Positions 3,769-31,109 of a DNA stretch of 35,802 nt are shown here, in pieces (position 1 is the first letter of the stretch; the number at the start of each line of letters is the position of its first letter). The DNA is from a virus, in IMG/VR virus record IMGVR_UViG_3300008113_000163, positions 1-35,802 of that record. The stretch is one strand, 5' to 3'. The notes below the pieces were generated by a model. It worked only from the letters and a program-made list of their open reading frames with translations, was not told the DNA's origin and made no database searches. Made by a program: the position numbers and the translations under genes.

Positions 3769-4758
3769 CTAGATCCTTTCGACAGATTCAATATTTCCCT
3801 GTGCGTTATAGGTAATTATAAGAGTTACTAGTAATTCCCTACTCTCCCCAAATTTCTGCACAAATATTAAAAAACCAGAGTTTACATCTAGTGCAGAACT
3901 AGTTATACCTATACTGTTATTTGTAACAATTAAGGTGTCGTTATCTATATTTGTTATAAATTCAGATGTTAAATCAAGTACTGATTTCGTATTTTGAGCA
4001 ACTGTAGATGCTGAAGACCCTGAGGTTATATTTACCATTAATCCAGTTTTTCCCGATATAGCCGGATCAATTCCAGCTCCACCTACATTGTACCATACAT
4101 AATATTGATTTTCATTTAGTGCTGAGTTTATAAAAAAATATTTGTTATTAAGAGTTTGACTATCTGCCCCTTCTGTATTTTTAATATACAAGGAAGTGTT
4201 AAAATCATAAGAACTAGGCTTAATTCCAGAAGAACTACTTGAAATTATTACATAATAAGAGCTATGAGCGGCTAAGAAGTTGGCATCTATATCCATAGCT
4301 TGTGCAGTTCTATTGGCTATAGTTTCACTTGTGTGAGTAGATAGCAAGCTTACTTGGATACTTCTATAGGTTCCTACAACATCGGGTTCAGTATTTGAAA
4401 AATCAACATTAAACCATACTTTTACAGCCCCTACATCATCATGCACTACGAAGGCTTTTCCTGCTAATGAGGCTGGAGTTCTATTTAAAAATGCAAGTAT
4501 TGTCTTGTGGGCAGATCCTAGCAAATCTCCTCTAGTGGAAATTCTAGTTTCTTGATACGCTCCATTTGAATAATATTTTGCATCTTTTATATTACCAGTT
4601 CCAAATCCTGTGGTGTAATAAGTCAAATCCACTTTACCATATCTGACGGGTACTAAACTATTAACCGCTACTATATTAAGTGCTTTGGCTTCCTCATTGT
4701 GAGAAGAAGTAATAGAGTTGGTATAATCTAAAGAAGTGGGCTTGTGATTTTTATTCAT
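3769..4758 (-). CDS. Virion structural protein with two tandem beta modules, 329 aa
   Basis: After an N-terminal region of about 90 aa, the protein holds two related modules of about 105 aa each. The first starts at LAGKAFVVHDDVGAVKVWFN and the second at LNNKYFFINSALNENQYYVW. Both then carry a pattern like VG/GIDP..., a V-x-(I/L)-x-(S/T) strand, TxA-x-N/R-T, and an (I/V)T-x-(S/N)-x-x-(G/S)I segment. Repeats of this design occur in phage virion proteins of unknown function. The gene follows the 1285-aa fibre after a 24-base gap that contains a good extended -10 promoter, so it may also be transcribed on its own. It is likely a fibre or baseplate-type structural protein. I see no catalytic motif. 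Confidence 0.7.
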   Translation of the reverse strand: MNKNHKPTSLDYTNSITSSHNEEAKALNIVAVNSLVPVRYGKVDLTYYTTGFGTGNIKDAKYYSNGAYQETRISTRGDLLGSAHKTILAFLNRTPASLAGKAFVVHDDVGAVKVWFNVDFSNTEPDVVGTYRSIQVSLLSTHTSETIANRTAQAMDIDANFLAAHSSYYVIISSSSSGIKPSSYDFNTSLYIKNTEGADSQTLNNKYFFINSALNENQYYVWYNVGGAGIDPAISGKTGLMVNITSGSSASTVAQNTKSVLDLTSEFITNIDNDTLIVTNNSIGITSSALDVNSGFLIFVQKFGESRELLVTLIITYNAQGNIESVERI

Positions 4759-10545: not shown

Positions 10546-11509
10546 TTTTCAACTCCTTGTAAAAATTTGCTACTTCTAACGGATTCGGTAATAACTTTTG
10601 TACAATAACAGAAGGAAGTGAGTTTAGCTCAATTAACTTACAGTTATTAAAATTTATATTAGTATAGTCTCCTAGATATCCTTTTGCAAAATTTTTGCTT
10701 TTATATCCAAATTGCTTATTTCTGTAATGGGTGATATATGCTTCGTGTTTAATTGAAGCTATGAATCCTATGAAAGCATCACCTGCTGCGGCAATATGAA
10801 TAGCTGCAGAGTCGTTTGAGTATAAGTATTTACAATCAACTAGTAATTGAGAAAAATCTGTAAGAGACAACTTATCTCTCAAATCAACATCAGGAACTTC
10901 TGTAGTTTTTACATATCCACAATGCTCGTCTACCGTTTTACCTACTAAACAAATTTTAAATCCTTGATCTTTAAAAGCTTTTATAGTAGTATCCCAGTAT
11001 TCTGGGGAAAATGTTTTACTTGGAAAATGTTTCCCTGCATGGATCACTATAAAGTCTTCTGCATTTTTAGAAACATGTAGAGCATCCTTATTCTTAATTG
11101 AATAAGGAGGTAAGTTTATAGTTTTATAGTTATCCGGTAATTGCCATCCAAATAGCCCCATTCCCCAATAGTCAACGCAATGGGTAGTCATATGTGATAA
11201 AAATTGCCAAATAAGATTCTCAGGTCTTTGAACACCTTCTAATACTAAGTATTCTTGTTCGTTGATCTTTTCTTTTAAGGGAATAATTTTAAGATTTAAA
11301 TGAGTAAAAAATTCAGGATTTGCTGTCTGTATAGACCAGTTAATTCCTTTAAACTGATCAATAGCAAATCTTATAGCTGGCTCAGCACAAACAATATCCC
11401 CAAGTCCACCATTTATCTTAAGCAATACATTATTGTGAACGCCTCTATTCTGAGCTTCCATTTTATTTTGAAGAGGAAAATTTTTAGACATCATGTCTTG
11501 ATTATACAT
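10532..11509 (-). CDS. Glycosyltransferase family 9 (heptosyltransferase-like), 325 aa
   Basis: The protein shows the GT-B layout of GT9. The N-terminal LLKINGGLGDIVCAEPAI (about 29-46) has the conserved GxGD loop. The C-terminal domain opens with FIVIHAGKHFPSKTFSPEYW (about 153-172), has FKICLVGKTVDEH, and the nucleotide-sugar segment YLYSNDSAAIHIAAAGD (about 229-244). GT9 enzymes transfer heptose or other sugars to lipopolysaccharide. In a phage tail-gene cluster the likely uses are altering host surface glycan or decorating virion proteins. The start has GGAG seven bases upstream, formed by the last codons of the RCC1 gene, which it overlaps by 8 bases. The family call is fairly sure. The acceptor is unknown. 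Confidence 0.75.
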   Translation of the reverse strand: MYNQDMMSKNFPLQNKMEAQNRGVHNNVLLKINGGLGDIVCAEPAIRFAIDQFKGINWSIQTANPEFFTHLNLKIIPLKEKINEQEYLVLEGVQRPENLIWQFLSHMTTHCVDYWGMGLFGWQLPDNYKTINLPPYSIKNKDALHVSKNAEDFIVIHAGKHFPSKTFSPEYWDTTIKAFKDQGFKICLVGKTVDEHCGYVKTTEVPDVDLRDKLSLTDFSQLLVDCKYLYSNDSAAIHIAAAGDAFIGFIASIKHEAYITHYRNKQFGYKSKNFAKGYLGDYTNINFNNCKLIELNSLPSVIVQKLLPNPLEVANFYKELKNASI

Positions 11510-12836
11510 AATACTCCAGCGTTATGTTATAATTATTACGAGCATTTAAATTACGAAATAATTGAATTCCTATTTTAGTTAAAAAATAATTAAAAGTATA
11601 TGTTGTTCCGGGAATAACTTGAAAAATTGCTTTGTTTATAAATATAGAACCGGGTTGAAATATTTGACCTCCAATCATAGCAACTGGAGAAGACTTATTC
11701 TGTAATCCTGCTAAAGTACCGTCAGATAATCCATTTCCTAATTGACCTCCATTATTATCTCCCCAAGTCCAAGTGGAGCCATCTGCTTTAAGTGCGATAG
11801 ATGATATGTCTGTTGAAAAATTCACAAAACTATGACCGCCAACTACAGCTACAGGTGAAGATTTATTTACTATAGTGTCATCTCCTAGTTGACCTGCACT
11901 ATTATTTCCCCATGTCCAAGCGGAACCATCAGATTTAAGACCTCCTGAAGATGAATTAGAATTTCCAGATGTTAGCTGTATGAAACTATGCCCGCCAACT
12001 ACTGGCACCGGAGAAGATCTAACTGAGGTTGTACCATCTCCTAATTGCCCAAATGCGTTAGCTCCCCATGCCCAAGCCGAACCATCAGATTTTAATGCTA
12101 ATACAGAAGTACCAGAGGCTACTATACTTATAAAACTATGTCCGCCTATTACTTGTACAGGTGATGATTTACTTATTGCTGTACCATCTCCTAATTGCCC
12201 ACTGGTATTAATTCCCCATGTCCATACTGAACCGTCTGATTTTAATGCTGCAGATATAAGTCCAGAACTTGCTATGTTGATAAAACTGTGTCCTCCAGTA
12301 ACTAATACTGGAGAGGATTTGTTTACTACAGTATTATCTCCAAGTTGACCTGATGCGTTGGCTCCCCATGCCCATGCCGAACCGTCTGACTTTAATGCTA
12401 AAGTATTTGCGTTTTTGGAACTTATATTTATAAAACTGTGACCCCCAACTGCAGCCACTGGAGAAGACTTATTTACCACTGTGTTATCACCTAATTGACC
12501 ACTTGTATTTTGCCCCCATCCCCATACTGATCCATCAGTTTTTAAAGCTGTAGCAAAGGTAGAACCTGCTGTCATTTTTATAAAACTATGACCTCCGATT
12601 ACTGCTACTAATGAAGATTTACTTACTATCGTGTTATCTCCTAGTTGACCTTGTAAACTAGGTCCACATGCCCAAACTTGTCCGTTTGCTTTTAGAGCAT
12701 ATGTATTAAATCCAGAGCTTGCCGTTAATAATTTGAAATTATCATAAACTGAAACTGAAATATTGGTTACATTAGCTGGAGCTGTCCAGTTTAAAAATAT
12801 TGAGTCTAATGTTTTTTTGACTAATCGCTTTGTCAT
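11502..12836 (-). CDS. RCC1-repeat (beta-propeller) tail protein, copy 3, 444 aa
   Basis: Seven RCC1 repeats of about 50 aa each, with the signature ALK-x-DGS-x-W-x-WG-x-N...GQLGD-x-T, then KSSPV and GGHSFI. Seven repeats fit a closed seven-bladed propeller. The propeller is flanked by WTAPANVTNISVSVYD at the N-terminus (about 17-32) and by VIPGTTYTFNYFL and a final ITLEYYV at the C-terminus. It is the last of three tandem paralogues and overlaps the previous one by 4 bases (ATGA) and the glycosyltransferase by 8. RCC1 propellers in eukaryotes bind proteins or chromatin. Here, next to fibre genes, host binding or fibre assembly is the likely role. The exact function is unknown. Confidence 0.85.
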   Translation of the reverse strand: MTKRLVKKTLDSIFLNWTAPANVTNISVSVYDNFKLLTASSGFNTYALKANGQVWACGPSLQGQLGDNTIVSKSSLVAVIGGHSFIKMTAGSTFATALKTDGSVWGWGQNTSGQLGDNTVVNKSSPVAAVGGHSFINISSKNANTLALKSDGSAWAWGANASGQLGDNTVVNKSSPVLVTGGHSFINIASSGLISAALKSDGSVWTWGINTSGQLGDGTAISKSSPVQVIGGHSFISIVASGTSVLALKSDGSAWAWGANAFGQLGDGTTSVRSSPVPVVGGHSFIQLTSGNSNSSSGGLKSDGSAWTWGNNSAGQLGDDTIVNKSSPVAVVGGHSFVNFSTDISSIALKADGSTWTWGDNNGGQLGNGLSDGTLAGLQNKSSPVAMIGGQIFQPGSIFINKAIFQVIPGTTYTFNYFLTKIGIQLFRNLNARNNYNITLEYYV

Positions 12837-15320
12837 ACAATATATTCTATCACAATTGTTAAATTATTACCAAAAGTACTATTTGCTAAAATATCCATTC
12901 CTATTTGATTAAAAAATGTATTAAAACTGTAAGTAGTTCCGGGAGTTACGTCTATATTTTTTTGAAGTAAAGTATATGGTTTGGATTCAAATAAATGCCC
13001 GCCGATTACTTGTACTGGAGAGGATTTACTTACTACTGTATTATCTCCTAATTGACCACTTGTGTTTAATCCCCAAGCCCATACTGATCCATCAGCTTTT
13101 AAAGCCATTGAATGAAGTTGTCCTGCACTAATTTGAATAAACTTATGTCCTCCAACTATAGGAACTGGAGAAGATTTGTTTCCAATTGTTTCATCTGCTA
13201 ATTGACCATTAGAGTTAGATCCCCATGCCCATACGGAGCCGTCTATTTTTAATCCTAGACAGTGAACATCTGAAGCTTCTATTTGTACAAAGCTGTGCGA
13301 TCCTGTTACTGCAACTGGAACACTTGTAGAGCCTGTGCTAAGATTATCTCCTAATCTTCCACTGCCACGACTTCCCCATGCCCATGCTGAACCGTCTGAT
13401 TTTAAAGCATAAGAGGCATTTCCTCCTCCTCTAATTGCTATAAAACTGTGTCCTCCAGCCACAGGAACTGGAGATGATTTGCTTAGTGAAGTATTATCTC
13501 CTAGTTGACCTCCAGTATTTATTCCCCATGCCCATGCTGAACCGTCTGATTTTAAAGCTATTGAGTGAGCAGATCCTGCGTAAATAGCAATAAAACTATG
13601 TCCACCAACAACTGGTACTGGAGATGATTTGTTTACTATAGTGTTATCTCCTAACTGACCTTGAGGATTATTCCCCCATGTCCACGCAGATCCATCTGAT
13701 TTTAAGGCTACGTAGTGAGATGATCCGGCTCCTCCACTAAGGTATATGAAACTATGTCCTCCAACTACTGGCACTGGAGAAGATTTATTTACTACTGTGT
13801 TATCTCCAAGTTGACCATTAGTCGAAGATCCCCAAATCCATGCTGTTCTATCTGATTTTATTGCAGAAGGAGTTGATCCCATTTGTTCAGATAATTGTGT
13901 AAAACTGTGTCCTCCGATAACTGCAACCGGAGATGATTTGTTTACTATAGTGTTATCTCCTAATTGACCTACAGTATTAGAACCCCACGACCAAATAGAT
14001 CCATTTGTTTTTAATGCTACGTTAGCATTTATTGAAGCGGATATTAATCTATCTGATTTATCATAAATTGACAAAAATATTTGTGTTACTCCTGCTGGAG
14101 CTATCCAGTCTACACTATTCATGCTAAATTCTTTTTTTACATATCTAGCCATAATACTCCAAAACTATAAATGAGTCATTTTGAGCATTAGGTACTATTA
14201 CTTGAGATCCTATAGTCGTAAAAAAACTCGATATATTATATGTTTGTCCGGGAGTAACGTCCATTACTCTAGAAACATTATGCCTAATTCCAGATAAAAA
14301 TAAATTAGATCCTGCTACTTGAATTGGAGATGACTTGCTAATAAGTGTATTATCTCCAAGTTGACCTTGAGAATTAGATCCCCACATCCATAAAGTGCCA
14401 TTTTCTTTTAGAGCGCAAGAATGAGAACCTCCGGCACTTATATGTATGAAACTATGTCCTCCAACAACTGCTACTGGAGATGATCTTCTAGTAACAGTGC
14501 CATCTCCTAACTGACCCGATGTATTTAAACCCCAAGCCCATACTGATCCATCAGCCTTTAGAGCTAAAGTATGACTTCCTCCGGGATTAGCACTTATATC
14601 TATAAATGAATGAGCTCCCGAAGTTATAAATGGAGAAGTACTTATTGTGGTAGTACCATCTCCAAGTTCTCCATTAGTATTAGTTCCCCATGAATATGTA
14701 CTATTGTTTGTACTAATTGCTATAGAAAAATTTAATCCAGCAGTAATTTTTCGATACGTACGAGTTCCACTAACTACAACTGGAGATGATTTTGCTACTG
14801 ATGTGCCATCCCCCACCGAACCGCTGACATTATCTCCCCATGCCCACACAAAACCATCAGCTTTTAAAGCTAAAGTATGAACGCTTCCTGCTGCTAAAGA
14901 TACAAAACTGTGACCTCCTACTACGGGAACAGGAGAACTTTGAGTTGTTATAACATTAGTTCCCTTTCCTGCTCCAGCTCCCCAAGCCCAAGCCTGATTA
15001 TCACTCTTTAACGCTACACAAAAAATACTTCCGGCTGTAACTGAAACAAAGCTGTGACCTCCAGCTACTGCAACAGGAGAGGATTTACTTACTACTGAAC
15101 TATCCCCAAGTTGACCCGAAGAATTTAGACCCCATGTCCATATAGATCCGTTAGATTTAAGAGCCGCTACGTTTGTAGTTCCTGCACTTATAGAAACAAA
15201 ACTATGACCCCCCACTACAGGAACTAAAGAAGATTTATTAACAATTGTAGCATCTCCTAATTCTCCAGAGAAATTTCCTCCAGAAGATAATACAGCTCCA
15301 TCTGATCTTAAAGTGTAAGT
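11680..15320 (-). repeat. Twenty-one RCC1 coding repeats in three adjacent genes (about 150 bp each)
   Basis: Each of the three genes encodes seven W-x-WG modules of about 50 aa. Several modules are nearly identical in protein: GGHSFI and KSSPV occur in most, and ALKSDGSAWAWG occurs in several. At DNA level many copies share stretches but differ at silent positions. This is a dense target for recombination between copies. Boundaries are approximate. Confidence 0.85.
12833..14152 (-). CDS. RCC1-repeat (beta-propeller) tail protein, copy 2, 439 aa
   Basis: Same plan as its neighbours. The N-terminal frame has APAGVTQIFLSIYD (about 18-31). Then come seven RCC1 modules (ALKSDGSAWAWG, GQLGDNT, NKSSPVPVVGGHSFI and variants), and a C-terminal frame with DVTPGTTYSFNTFF (about 401-414) ending in IVIEYIV. 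The fifth and sixth modules are the most divergent (SRGSGRLGDNLSTGSTSVPV and NGQLADETIGN). The start has GGAG seven bases upstream, formed by the last codons of copy 1, with an 8-base overlap. The tandem, same-frame design shows origin by gene duplication. It is presumed to be a tail-tip or fibre protein, and no enzymatic motif is visible. Confidence 0.85.
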   Translation of the reverse strand: MARYVKKEFSMNSVDWIAPAGVTQIFLSIYDKSDRLISASINANVALKTNGSIWSWGSNTVGQLGDNTIVNKSSPVAVIGGHSFTQLSEQMGSTPSAIKSDRTAWIWGSSTNGQLGDNTVVNKSSPVPVVGGHSFIYLSGGAGSSHYVALKSDGSAWTWGNNPQGQLGDNTIVNKSSPVPVVGGHSFIAIYAGSAHSIALKSDGSAWAWGINTGGQLGDNTSLSKSSPVPVAGGHSFIAIRGGGNASYALKSDGSAWAWGSRGSGRLGDNLSTGSTSVPVAVTGSHSFVQIEASDVHCLGLKIDGSVWAWGSNSNGQLADETIGNKSSPVPIVGGHKFIQISAGQLHSMALKADGSVWAWGLNTSGQLGDNTVVSKSSPVQVIGGHLFESKPYTLLQKNIDVTPGTTYSFNTFFNQIGMDILANSTFGNNLTIVIEYIV

Positions 15321-15452
15321 TCCATTTAATGCTAAGTCTGATAATCTATCAAAACCATCTGCGATAGTTATTTTTACTTTAGTTACCCCAGCTGGAACTG
15401 TCCAACTGGAATAACTTCTAGGGAATATCTTTGTTACTAAATTTTTTGACAT
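14145..15452 (-). CDS. RCC1-repeat (beta-propeller) tail protein, copy 1, 435 aa
   Basis: The N-terminal WTVPAGVTKVKITIADG (about 17-33) is followed by seven RCC1 modules. The C-terminal MDVTPGQTYNISSFF (about 397-411) ends in FIVLEYYG. The first and fifth modules have lost the WG signature (VLSSGGN and TYSWGTN), and the third has a short variant lacking the GQLGD stretch, so this copy is the most degenerate of the three. It lies 3 bases downstream of the 750-aa fibre gene, with a weak ribosome binding site, so it probably depends on that gene's transcript. It is likely a component of the tail fibre complex. Function unknown. Confidence 0.85.
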   Translation of the reverse strand: MSKNLVTKIFPRSYSSWTVPAGVTKVKITIADGFDRLSDLALNGTYTLRSDGAVLSSGGNFSGELGDATIVNKSSLVPVVGGHSFVSISAGTTNVAALKSNGSIWTWGLNSSGQLGDSSVVSKSSPVAVAGGHSFVSVTAGSIFCVALKSDNQAWAWGAGAGKGTNVITTQSSPVPVVGGHSFVSLAAGSVHTLALKADGFVWAWGDNVSGSVGDGTSVAKSSPVVVSGTRTYRKITAGLNFSIAISTNNSTYSWGTNTNGELGDGTTTISTSPFITSGAHSFIDISANPGGSHTLALKADGSVWAWGLNTSGQLGDGTVTRRSSPVAVVGGHSFIHISAGGSHSCALKENGTLWMWGSNSQGQLGDNTLISKSSPIQVAGSNLFLSGIRHNVSRVMDVTPGQTYNISSFFTTIGSQVIVPNAQNDSFIVLEYYG

Positions 15453-18185: not shown

Positions 18186-18224
18186 GATGATACCTCATAA
18201 TATATTTGTTATATTAGGAGAAAC

Positions 18225-19860: not shown

Positions 19861-19981
19861 TTTTTTTCCTTTTTATAAACTTTTTATTTTTTTTATTTTG
19901 GTATTACATTGCATCATTCGATATTCCAAGGGCATTGCTTGCTTGGAAGTCTATTGAATCCTGTCTATCCAATTATATTTG
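19861..19981 (-). promoter_or_regulatory. Leader upstream of the decoration and capsid genes, with an inverted repeat
   Basis: A 121-base gap, unusually long for this cluster, between scaffold and decoration genes. It holds TTCCAAG (19924-19930) and its complement CTTGGAA (19942-19948) with an 11-base loop. No T-run follows on either strand, so it is not an intrinsic terminator. The rest is A-rich on the coding strand. A promoter driving capsid expression is plausible here, but no pair of hexamers with normal spacing is convincing. Confidence 0.35.
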
Positions 19982-20917
19982 TTAACCGCCTAGATTTTTA
20001 AAAAAGTCCTTAGCTTTAATTTTTTGAGGTTCTTCTTGTTTTTTATTAGAAACACCAGTATCTTGCGTTTTTAGAGGAGATTTTGGAGCATTTTCTTTTG
20101 GCTTAACTGCTTGAATTTGTTTATTTCTTATAGCTCTAATTCTATCTTTAGATACTAAAGTTTCTACTTCGTCGTCGTCCAATACTCCTAACATATCTGA
20201 AATATCTTTTTTGTACTGTTGTTTTACAAAGGGGATCAATTCTTGCATAGTTAGATCAATTCCATTAGAGTATGCAATGTAAGCTAAGTCTGCTAATTTT
20301 TTAGAAATATATGCAGATCTCGGAAGCTCTCCCACTTCTATAGCTTGGATTATTTCATTTTCTAATTCCATAGCTGCTTCATGTTGCAATCTTTGTCTTT
20401 GCTCCTCTACTCTAGCTTCTTCTATGGCTTGCTTTTCTGCTAACAACTCTTCGTATTTTCTTTTGGTTTCCTCTAATGCAAGTTGTTCTGGGGTTTTCTG
20501 GCTTTCTTCTAAATCTTGTTTTAAAATAGCTTCTGCCAAAGCTCTCTTTTGATCTTTCGATAAATTAAACTCAGGACTCATTACAATAGATAAAGGATTT
20601 GAGGTGAACTGTTCTAGGAATTCCCTAACATCCTGTTGAGTTTCCTGTAGTTGTTTTGCTGTAATGGCTCTTTCTTGAAAAGCTTGTTGAGCTGCTTTTT
20701 CCATCTGCAAAGCTTTAGTGATTCTATCTTTATCTCTTAAGTTAATTTTTTCTTTAACTTCTTTTCCATTTACCTTCAGAACATACTCTTCCCATTCTTC
20801 TTGAGACATTGAAGATAGTTCTTCCGGTTTTTGAGATTCTAATTTTTCAAGTTCAGCTTGATCTGATCCCTCAGAAAATTCAGACTCTTGAGACTCAACA
20901 CTGTTTTCTTCTGACAT
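19982..20917 (-). CDS. Capsid assembly scaffolding protein, 311 aa
   Basis: A highly charged, Glu/Lys/Gln-rich helical protein with long predicted coiled-coil stretches (for example EETKRKYEELLAEKQAIEEA, about 147-166). It starts with an acidic disordered arm and ends with a basic Lys/Pro region and KAKDFFKNLGG. This composition and the place directly before the decoration and capsid genes are typical of phage scaffolds, whose basic C-terminus contacts the capsid protein. No protease active site is visible in it. AAAGGA upstream of ATG at 20917 supports the start. A gap of 99 bases precedes it. The call is based on composition and order rather than a sequence family. Confidence 0.75.
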   Translation of the reverse strand: MSEENSVESQESEFSEGSDQAELEKLESQKPEELSSMSQEEWEEYVLKVNGKEVKEKINLRDKDRITKALQMEKAAQQAFQERAITAKQLQETQQDVREFLEQFTSNPLSIVMSPEFNLSKDQKRALAEAILKQDLEESQKTPEQLALEETKRKYEELLAEKQAIEEARVEEQRQRLQHEAAMELENEIIQAIEVGELPRSAYISKKLADLAYIAYSNGIDLTMQELIPFVKQQYKKDISDMLGVLDDDEVETLVSKDRIRAIRNKQIQAVKPKENAPKSPLKTQDTGVSNKKQEEPQKIKAKDFFKNLGG

Positions 20918-26105: not shown

Positions 26106-26390
26106 TTAACGCTTATTAAAATTTACCGCAGCTTTAATAGCTTCATTTCCATTTTTAATTTTTGTAACTTCTAAAGCAAGCTCTTGCATCTTAATGTTAG
26201 ATAACTCTTCATTTTTATTAATCTTATCTTCTAACTCATTTGATATTTTTTTGTAGGACAAGAATTCTCTGGATGTTGCGTATGCTAAAATGGCTATTAA
26301 ACATATTGCGTCTGAATATGAGCTTGAGAAGAATATAATTCTTGTGACAAAGATACCCGCTAATATGAGTAAAAAATCATAATTCCGCAT
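26106..26390 (-). CDS. Small membrane protein at the head of the structural operon, 94 aa
   Basis: Two hydrophobic segments near the N-terminus (FLLILAGIFVTRIIFF, about 6-21, and DAICLIAILAYATS, about 27-40) are followed by a charged helical cytoplasmic-type tail with coiled-coil character (NELEDKINKNEELSNIKMQE). The ATG at 26390 has AGGAA six bases upstream. It is the first gene of the leftward operon, just before the terminase genes, and ends 2 bases before the small terminase start. The pattern would suit a holin or another small phage membrane protein. No family is recognised and lysis function is untested. Confidence 0.55.
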   Translation of the reverse strand: MRNYDFLLILAGIFVTRIIFFSSSYSDAICLIAILAYATSREFLSYKKISNELEDKINKNEELSNIKMQELALEVTKIKNGNEAIKAAVNFNKR

Positions 26391-26448
26391 TAAATTTCCT
26401 ATGTTAAAAATGAGACTTTGTGTTAATCGCTGGCATTTTTGTTAATTC

Positions 26449-26462
26449 GTTTCACTAGAAAC
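26449..26462. repeat. Inverted repeat GTTTC-ACTA-GAAAC
   Basis: Five-base arms with a four-base spacer, on the left side of the divergent region, closer to the leftward gene. It could be a protein-binding site for the leftward operon. It lies about 75 bases away from the main inverted-repeat array. Confidence 0.4.
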
Positions 26463-26502
26463 AGTCGAACTTACATTGTCTCACTTATATTTGTTATTAA
26501 TT

Positions 26503-26530
26503 TTGCGCTTGTAGATTTTCTATGTATAAT
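26503..26530 (+). promoter_or_regulatory. Candidate rightward promoter
   Basis: TTGCGC and TATAAT are separated by 16 bases. Transcription would begin near 26537, just where the inverted-repeat array begins, giving the M15 peptidase transcript a structured leader of about 170 bases. The -10 is perfect and the -35 is weak. Confidence 0.4.
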
Positions 26531-26553
26531 ATTCTTACTATATAGTATACCAA
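26526..26553 (-). promoter_or_regulatory. Candidate leftward promoter
   Basis: On the minus strand TTGGTA and TATTAT are separated by 16 bases. The -10 element shares bases with the rightward TATAAT, so the two promoters would compete. It would give the terminase operon a leader of about 130 bases. Weak support. Confidence 0.25.
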
Positions 26554-26643
26554 AATTCGCAGCGAGTTAAACGAGCTGCGATACGTATAATAGTATACGT
26601 AATGAATACCGTAGATAATACGGTAAATATACTAAATATTTAG
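26537..26643. repeat. Array of five inverted repeats with regular spacing
   Basis: From left to right: ACTATATAGT (26537-26546); TCGCAGC with GCTGCGA (26557-26581, 11-base spacer); TACGTATA with TATACGTA (26582-26601, 4-base spacer); TACCGTA with TACGGTA (26607-26625, 5-base spacer); CTAAATATTTAG (26632-26643). The arm sequences differ from each other, and all arms are perfect. Centres are about 22-28 bases apart, mostly close to two helical turns. Confidence 0.85.
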
Positions 26644-26706
26644 ATTTATTAGTAACGCACTGCATTTTACATAGAATTTTAAACAAATATATCTAAGGAT
26701 TTAAGT

Positions 26707-27108
26707 ATGATAACATTTAAAAAGAAAGAAAACAAGAAGTTAACTGAAAATTTTAACAGTAAGGAATTTGAGTGTAGTTGTGGGAAATGCGATATTCAAA
26801 AGATATCACAAGATTTAGTTGATAAATTACAGCAAGTTAGAGAAAAATATGGAAAATCTATAACTGTAACATCAGGATACAGATGCGAACATCACAATAA
26901 AGCTATAGGTGGAAAACCTAACAGTTCTCACATTGGAGGACTTGCTGCTGACATAGCACCTACCTTGATGAATATAGACGAACTTGATGATCTCTATGAG
27001 ATTTGTTTCAATATATTCGATAACATAGGAGATGGGAGATCTAAAAAATTTATACATGTAGATATTCGACCTCCAAAGTCTACTGGTAAAAGGCATTGGA
27101 TTTACTAA
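26707..27108 (+). CDS. M15-family zinc peptidase, probable endolysin, 133 aa
   Basis: It carries the zinc site of the VanY/phage M15 family: SSHIGGLAADI gives His 75 and Asp 82, and IHVDI near the end gives His 117. SGYRC (56-60) is the usual substrate-loop segment before it. The N-terminal FECSCGKC is a common opening of small phage M15 endolysins. The family cuts D,D or L,D bonds in peptidoglycan stem peptides. There is no signal peptide, so it would need a holin or the tail to reach the wall. It is first in the rightward operon behind an AAGGA ribosome site, and its stop overlaps the next start (TAATG). Confidence 0.85.
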   Translation: MITFKKKENKKLTENFNSKEFECSCGKCDIQKISQDLVDKLQQVREKYGKSITVTSGYRCEHHNKAIGGKPNSSHIGGLAADIAPTLMNIDELDDLYEICFNIFDNIGDGRSKKFIHVDIRPPKSTGKRHWIY

Positions 27109-27386
27109 TGAAAAAAATGCAAAAAATGAATAGCTTGTCTAAAAAAATATCTAAAAAAACAGGTTTGAGCATTTATGAGATAGATGCTATACTTAAAGTG
27201 GCAGCTTATGAGACAGTTGAGATCTTAAAAAAAGAACAAAGATTTTACTGGGAAGGATTTGGAGTTTTTAGAGTTAAAGTAACTGAGAATGGTATGGGAG
27301 TTTATATTAGATTATCAGAAGACGCTTATTCTAGATTAAATAGTGATAATAATGGAGATAGGAAAGATGAAATTATATTTGAATGA
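27108..27386 (+). CDS. HU/IHF-like DNA-binding protein, 92 aa
   Basis: The first 60 residues follow the HU pattern: LSKKISKKTGLSIYEIDAIL, then a helix AYETVEILKKEQRF, and YWEGFGVFRVK, equivalent to the GFG-x-F motif. After this, instead of the long DNA-clamping arm of HU, it has a short, different end (VYIRLSEDAYSRLNSDNN). It may therefore dimerise like HU but grip DNA differently. HU-like proteins organise DNA and assist replication or packaging. The start was taken at 27108, where TAATG joins it to the M15 gene, rather than at an upstream TTG. Confidence 0.65.
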   Translation: MKKMQKMNSLSKKISKKTGLSIYEIDAILKVAAYETVEILKKEQRFYWEGFGVFRVKVTENGMGVYIRLSEDAYSRLNSDNNGDRKDEIIFE

Positions 27387-31080: not shown

Positions 31081-31109
31081 TTGCTCCTTATGCATACATT
31101 TGTTATAAT
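31081..31109 (+). promoter_or_regulatory. Candidate rightward promoter, possibly bidirectional
   Basis: TTGCTC and a perfect TATAAT (31104-31109) are 17 bases apart, reading into the 40-aa gene. On the minus strand TATTAT (31110-31105) with TTCATA 18 bases upstream (31134-31129) could drive the opposing zinc-finger gene. The two -10 elements overlap. Confidence 0.45.

Follow-up and report, generated by a model that had tools for sequence, protein, structure and literature searches.

The 316 bases that separate the leftward gene at 26106-26390 from the rightward M15 peptidase gene at 26707-27108 appear to be a cis-regulatory segment dividing two divergent operons, and their palindromes appear to belong to several modules, not to one repeat. 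The reading that we favour, with a probability of roughly 0.55, is an early/late switch in which a host-type promoter and its operator boxes, subject to repression, lie between two phage-type promoters. The host-type promoter at 26503-26530 would start the rightward transcript near 26537, and the rightward leader would fold first into a hairpin with tandem G.A mismatches (inverted repeat IR2), whose pairing is backed by covariation. AGTATACT-like boxes, of which one coincides with the start site and the rest follow from about +47, would bind a sequence-specific protein that is probably encoded by the phage. Once bound, this protein would repress the host-type promoter or block it, and both operons would then be transcribed from flanking TAACAAAT(A/G)TA motifs, one on each side.

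Such a scheme offers a compact and testable regulatory map for uncultured phages to which none of the sequenced isolates searched is closely related. Each of its parts, namely the host-type promoter, the operator box, the hairpin, the leader RNA, and the dispersed phage motif, carries a clear prediction.

The phage and its divergent control region

The window, i.e., the whole stretch of DNA that was analysed, is a 35.8-kb virus record and represents a fragment of an uncultured phage, of which a fuller relative measures 79.7 kb. This relative encodes PolA, a DnaB-like helicase, homologues of rIIA and rIIB, and an Erf-type annealing protein, as well as a virion protein resembling the internal one of T7. 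Such a gene content makes a lytic, podovirus-like phage likely, and the source would be lytic-type, uncultured, and about 80 kb in size. Relatives were collected by means of the terminase (21 loci in viral contigs, 74–90% identity), and more distant ones, mostly with 35–58% identity, were added by alignment. The intergenic region is present, whole or mostly, between the same two genes in 14 close relatives. No terminase relatives were found in bacterial genomes, and the isolates in the phage collection displayed remote similarity only, e.g., 27–28% identity for a Silvanigrella phage.

The palindromes had been described as lying at the junction of a leftward and a rightward operon, and this junction is real. 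After the peptidase and the HU-like protein, the rightward gene order continues with an AAA ATPase, a B12-type ribonucleotide reductase, and ThyX. The features of the region are the following:

26106-26390, reverse strand: leftward gene bordering the divergent region
26398-26483, reverse strand: structured 5' leader RNA of the leftward operon, with four short helices around the conserved loops GUAAGUUCG and GCGAUUAACAC, indicated by covariation
26486-26496, reverse strand: TAACAAATATA motif, directed towards the leftward operon and a candidate phage-type promoter
26503-26530, forward strand: putative host-type (sigma70-like) rightward promoter with a weak -35 hexamer, TTGCGC, and the -10 hexamer TATAAT at 26525-26530
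26536-26551, forward strand: IR1 (26536-26547, TACTAT/ATAGTA) and the overlapping box AGTATACC (26544-26551), at the presumed transcription start
26557-26581, forward strand: IR2 (TCGCAGC-11-GCTGCGA), leader hairpin of 14 of 15 phages; above a 7-bp stem, it has an internal loop of tandem G.A/A.G mismatches, a single G-C pair, and a terminal loop that is short and A-rich
26582-26601: IR3 (TACGTATA-4-TATACGTA), two adjacent boxes, CGTATAAT (26584-26591) and AGTATACG (26592-26599), supported by box enrichment in relatives
26607-26625: IR4 (TACCGTA-5-TACGGTA), private to this phage, in the place of the relatives' boxes 30 and 44 bp past the hairpin
26626-26643: box AATATACT (26626-26633) and IR5 (26632-26643, CTAAAT/ATTTAG), a drifted form of the conserved AT-rich element TACTAAATAGTTAA (consensus from the relatives' intergenic sequences)
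26652-26691, forward strand: interval with the conserved GTGACGCAnnGCAT element, in the window GTAACGCACTGCAT, and with the motif listed next
26681-26691, forward strand: AAACAAATATA, the second motif of the TAACAAAT type; the start codon of the peptidase follows 15 bp later
26707-27108, forward strand: first rightward gene, M15 peptidase, endolysin-like (Pfam PF08291, E=7e-23; phrog_894 endolysin, E=2.4e-37)
27108-27386, forward strand: second rightward gene, HU-like DNA-binding protein (Pfam PF00216, 24.3 bits with a cut-off of 22.4; phrog_379)

The array begins just past the conserved TATAAT promoter and lies between two TAACAAAT(A/G)TA copies, one facing each operon. The rightward promoter that had been suggested at 26503-26530 is plausible in view of its conserved -10 hexamer, although its -35 hexamer is weak; TATAAT, together with TTTG 18–19 bp upstream, is kept in most relatives.

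The TAACAAAT(A/G)TA motif is dispersed. With at most one mismatch, it occurs 16 times in the window against 4.5 expected, and none of 100 shuffled sequences reached 16. In five relatives, it lies outside genes and beside terminator-like hairpins, often directly after such a hairpin and ~25 nt before a start codon. We take the motif as a putative phage-type promoter. If it is one, these phages need a transcription factor of an unknown kind, either their own or a recruited one, because no match to the single-subunit RNA polymerase family was found in a search without a positive control (the control genomes likewise gave none). The late promoters of T4 consist of TATAAATA without a -35 element. 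The candidate motif resembles them in being short and dispersed and in lying just upstream of late-type genes without a clear -35, but its sequence is different.

Exact copies of the motif in the window are found on the reverse strand at 3946-3956, 18201-18211, 19974-19984, 26486-26496, and 31095-31105; the copy at 3946 sits inside a gene. In two distant relatives (L053, 1750-1920; L055, 1400-1530), TTGACA-type promoters stand before the same peptidase gene. Instead of IR2 and the boxes, these promoters are followed by GC-rich hairpins with T-runs that look attenuator-like by eye, although on that strand they were absent from the terminator scan's list.

Palindromes, leader hairpin, and boxes

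All five of the perfect inverted repeats that the preliminary description reported are present between 26536 and 26643, and each of them is perfect. When repeats with arms of at least 6 and loops of at most 12 were counted, the 120-bp stretch held 5 non-overlapping repeats versus 1.19 expected from first-order Markov copies, of which 0 in 2000 reached 5. It is the densest spot in the whole window. The distances from centre to centre are 27.5, 22.5, 24.5, and 21.5 bp. This near-even spacing is mostly set by the lengths of the repeats, because they nearly abut. The expression “regularly spaced array” is partly misleading, as only IR2 and, less strictly, IR1 stay palindromic in relatives. Conservation of the arms, which had been proposed as a check, was found for IR2, whereas IR3 and IR4 fail as the named palindromes.

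The IR2 hairpin occurs as one copy per genome, and its tandem G.A internal loop is invariant across the 14 of 15 phages that have it. The pair adjoining this loop is CG in seven, UA in four, and GC in one of the aligned sequences, and it is paired in all of them. Over the whole stem, 7 doubly changed cells were counted versus 1.9 in shuffles (0/500). On the terminase (TerL) tree, the state of the closing pair needs at least four changes, one of which falls between the close pair L013 and L018. The covariation rests mainly on one base pair, and the remaining stem pairs are nearly invariant and say little. We read IR2 as a real paired element, most simply an RNA, since it is not obvious why symmetrical G.A mismatches should be retained in a duplex operator. 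There is no U-run after it, and it is therefore not an ordinary terminator. Protection of the 5' end, or a landing site for a factor that binds RNA or modifies RNA polymerase, are the most likely options for its role. A search of viral contigs with the bare core gave at least 120 matches, most of which were judged to be due to chance; together with its flanking sequence, the core matched only eight known relatives. An extension of the stem at its base by IR1 and the following box was considered and found to be weak, with the pairing broken in many rows.

Downstream of the hairpin, the sequence is dominated by repeated boxes. In 1524 bp from 14 phages, 15 perfect copies of AGTATACT are found versus 0.38 expected (maximum 3 in 500), and with one mismatch allowed, there are 29 versus 4.9 expected. 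The core GTATAC is ~95-fold above the genome background in the relatives' region, and elsewhere in the genomes, boxes are scattered. Across phages, the boxes tend to sit about 17, 30, 44, and 58 bp past the hairpin. The spacing of neighbouring boxes is 12–14 bp in 19 of 49 cases, in a list that admits two mismatches and in which chance would account for about half of such sites. A phage may have one to about six boxes, and both number and positions differ between relatives. In the window, the boxes (26544, 26584, 26592, 26626) are degenerate and weaker than those of the relatives, without a perfect AGTATACT. Within IR1, TACTATA is invariant in 11 of 11 aligned rows, and 7 of 13 phages retain the palindrome in perfect form. 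The IR4 sequence was not found in the relatives' intergenic regions.

Because the boxes vary in number and position, and because the box part folds inconsistently and to a similar degree on either strand, they are read as candidate DNA sites, as expected of the targets of a sequence-specific protein. The met boxes of MetJ are palindromes of eight bp that abut in tandem operator arrays. The boxes described here are likewise eight-bp palindromes in series and of variable number, but they have another sequence and a spacing of 12–14 bp instead of abutting 8-bp units. A PhaR-like DNA-binding domain was present in 5 of the 10 records searched, and its gene is a candidate DNA-binding gene alongside the HU-like one. 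A second intergenic locus with ACTCAAYAGTATAC in two relatives gives a weak hint of a common regulator. The small phage proteins with the PhaR-like domain (PHB/PHA accumulation regulator, PF07879), a possible regulator, are encoded at G001:70376-70540, G002:49365-49517, G004:319-477, G006:53473-53619, and G007:35809-35958.

Three functions had been offered for the array as a whole. “Operator array” suits its GTATAC part, with AGTATACT boxes over-represented in relatives and changing in number and place. “Structured regulatory RNA” suits only IR2, with its compensatory changes; the downstream repeats fold inconsistently and about equally well on the other strand. The third, a replication origin, is weighed below.

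The leftward leader RNA

The leftward operon carries a leader of 86 nt directly after the TAACAAATATA motif, separate from the five-repeat array and on the opposite strand. Its alignment comprised 15 sequences, to which the independent member L052 was then added; the covariance model finds this distant relative with E about 1e-7. With L052 included, 9 of 15 pairs change on both sides versus 3.2 in shuffles (0/500), and an alignment that was not fitted to the model also displayed 9 such pairs. The case for the leader rests on covariation, because its single-sequence folding energy is unremarkable (z -0.7). Searches of Rfam at gathering and relaxed thresholds gave nothing credible for the IR2 hairpin or the leftward leader. 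The leader is probably a new phage RNA family, and it is the more novel object of the region compared with the five-repeat array. Two further matches to the leader pattern were rejected: one, in the GC-rich contig L027, falls within coding sequence and is due to chance, and one in a Vibrio contig was matched by the pattern but not by the covariance model.

By inspection, the intergenic region of L052 retains the leader RNA and both TAACAAAT-like motifs between the same flanking genes, and no TATAAT promoter, IR2 hairpin, or boxes were seen in it. Their absence, beside a retained leader and motifs, makes the five-repeat array look like the younger and more dispensable part of the region.

Other leaders were observed in these phages. 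A second long one (19861-19984, reverse strand) stretches between a TAACAAATATA motif and a 107-aa gene before the major capsid-like gene; its words ACTTCTAAGCAAGC and TTAGAATATCGA are conserved in relatives, and it may be a structured RNA. A third conserved leader follows AACAAATGTACATAG and contains AAGCTACC...GATGCTTTAACTTA ahead of a scaffold-like gene, with loci near 79523 in record G002 (L067-L071) and near 39918 in record G003 (L072-L075).

Alternative readings and known systems

It is quite unlikely that the repeats are chance palindromes in AT-rich intergenic DNA with one real hairpin among them. IR4 is without conservation, IR5 is the form of one lineage, and palindromes arise easily in AT-rich DNA, but five repeats were absent from all 2000 Markov copies, and the relatives independently show the box enrichment, by which this explanation is disfavoured. 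A structured leader RNA that spans the whole stretch and acts on the rightward operon by controlling its elongation, stability, or translation is rather improbable. Consecutive hairpins had been predicted for the leader, and that of the window does fold well, as a four-way junction of -32.9 kcal/mol with z -3.93 (124 nt; z -5.5 for 99 nt), in which an outer stem UAGUAUA/UAUACUA closes the hairpins in a row. This leaves room for an RNA role beyond the covarying IR2, and several of the relatives' leaders that include IR2 also fold better than shuffles (mean z -2.85). However, the downstream repeats are not consistently better than shuffles in relatives: without IR2, z ranges from +0.9 to -4.6 with a mean of -1.66, compared with -1.21 for the opposite strand, and it is positive or near zero in L017, L004, L013, and L005. 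The broken basal extension of IR2 argues in the same direction. Since palindromic boxes pair mutually in any transcript, outer stems arise trivially, and the array fold is a by-product unless shown otherwise.

A replication origin would treat the boxes as initiator iterons beside AT-rich DNA and would obtain its primer from the rightward promoter. The repeated boxes, their AT-rich surroundings, and a switch of strand composition at about 26 kb agree with this proposal, but the switch falls where the gene direction changes and can be explained without an origin. Moreover, few boxes are found in the window, and no initiator gene appeared among the 25 of 61 families listed. Iterons would be retained across the phage group, whereas L052 keeps the divergent genes and the leftward leader with no boxes, TATAAT promoter, or hairpin in that region, although its origin may lie elsewhere. 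The proposal gains no support from this comparison and is given little credence. Equally doubtful is IR2 as an RNA-only antitermination signal that allows the host RNA polymerase to pass terminators in the rightward operon. The put RNAs of HK022 are about 70 nt long and form two stem-loops (PMC9378689). Like put, IR2 would be a conserved RNA structure close to where host RNA polymerase begins a phage transcript: it lies just downstream of a host-type promoter, has a conserved internal loop, and belongs to genomes in which terminator-like hairpins occur. The resemblance is one of position only, as IR2 is a single short hairpin of 25 nt with a tandem G.A loop, no other part of the array is conserved as a paired structure, and no terminator was identified directly downstream in the rightward operon.

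The favoured early/late switch has its nearest parallel in phi29, in which the inverted repeats between the divergent early and late promoters A2b/A2c and A3 are targets of p4 and p6, the p4 sites being CTTTTT-15 bp-AAAATG (PMC3100819). In phi29, the host-type early promoters and the oppositely directed late promoter share one intergenic region, interspersed with inverted-repeat protein sites; here, such an arrangement is predicted from sequence, with putative host-type and late-type promoter motifs that are both present and conserved. A small nucleoid-like protein takes part in the phi29 switch, and the second gene of the present rightward operon is HU-like. The differences are that most boxes lie downstream of the start site and that the enriched repeated word is AGTATACT/GTATAC and not the p4-type CTTTTT-15-AAAATG. 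Neither p4 nor p6 was named among the 25 families listed per scan for a relative's rightward genes. As the site sequence is unlike that of p4, the region is not a member of the phi29 switch, despite the similar logic. We know of no phi29 counterpart of the leader hairpin. A bolder version of the switch is possible but improbable: the tandem-G.A hairpin and the 86-nt leftward leader, as two unrelated and undescribed RNA elements, would act directly on RNA polymerase or the ribosome, next to an unknown repressor and phage promoters read by an unknown initiation factor, forming a self-contained early/late switch without a described counterpart.

Elsewhere in the window (11502-15452, reverse strand), there are three neighbouring paralogous genes of about 440 aa with repeated WG-N-GQLGD motifs. 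Read from the translation alone, these repeats resemble those of RCC1 beta-propellers, and the products are probably tail or host-recognition proteins.
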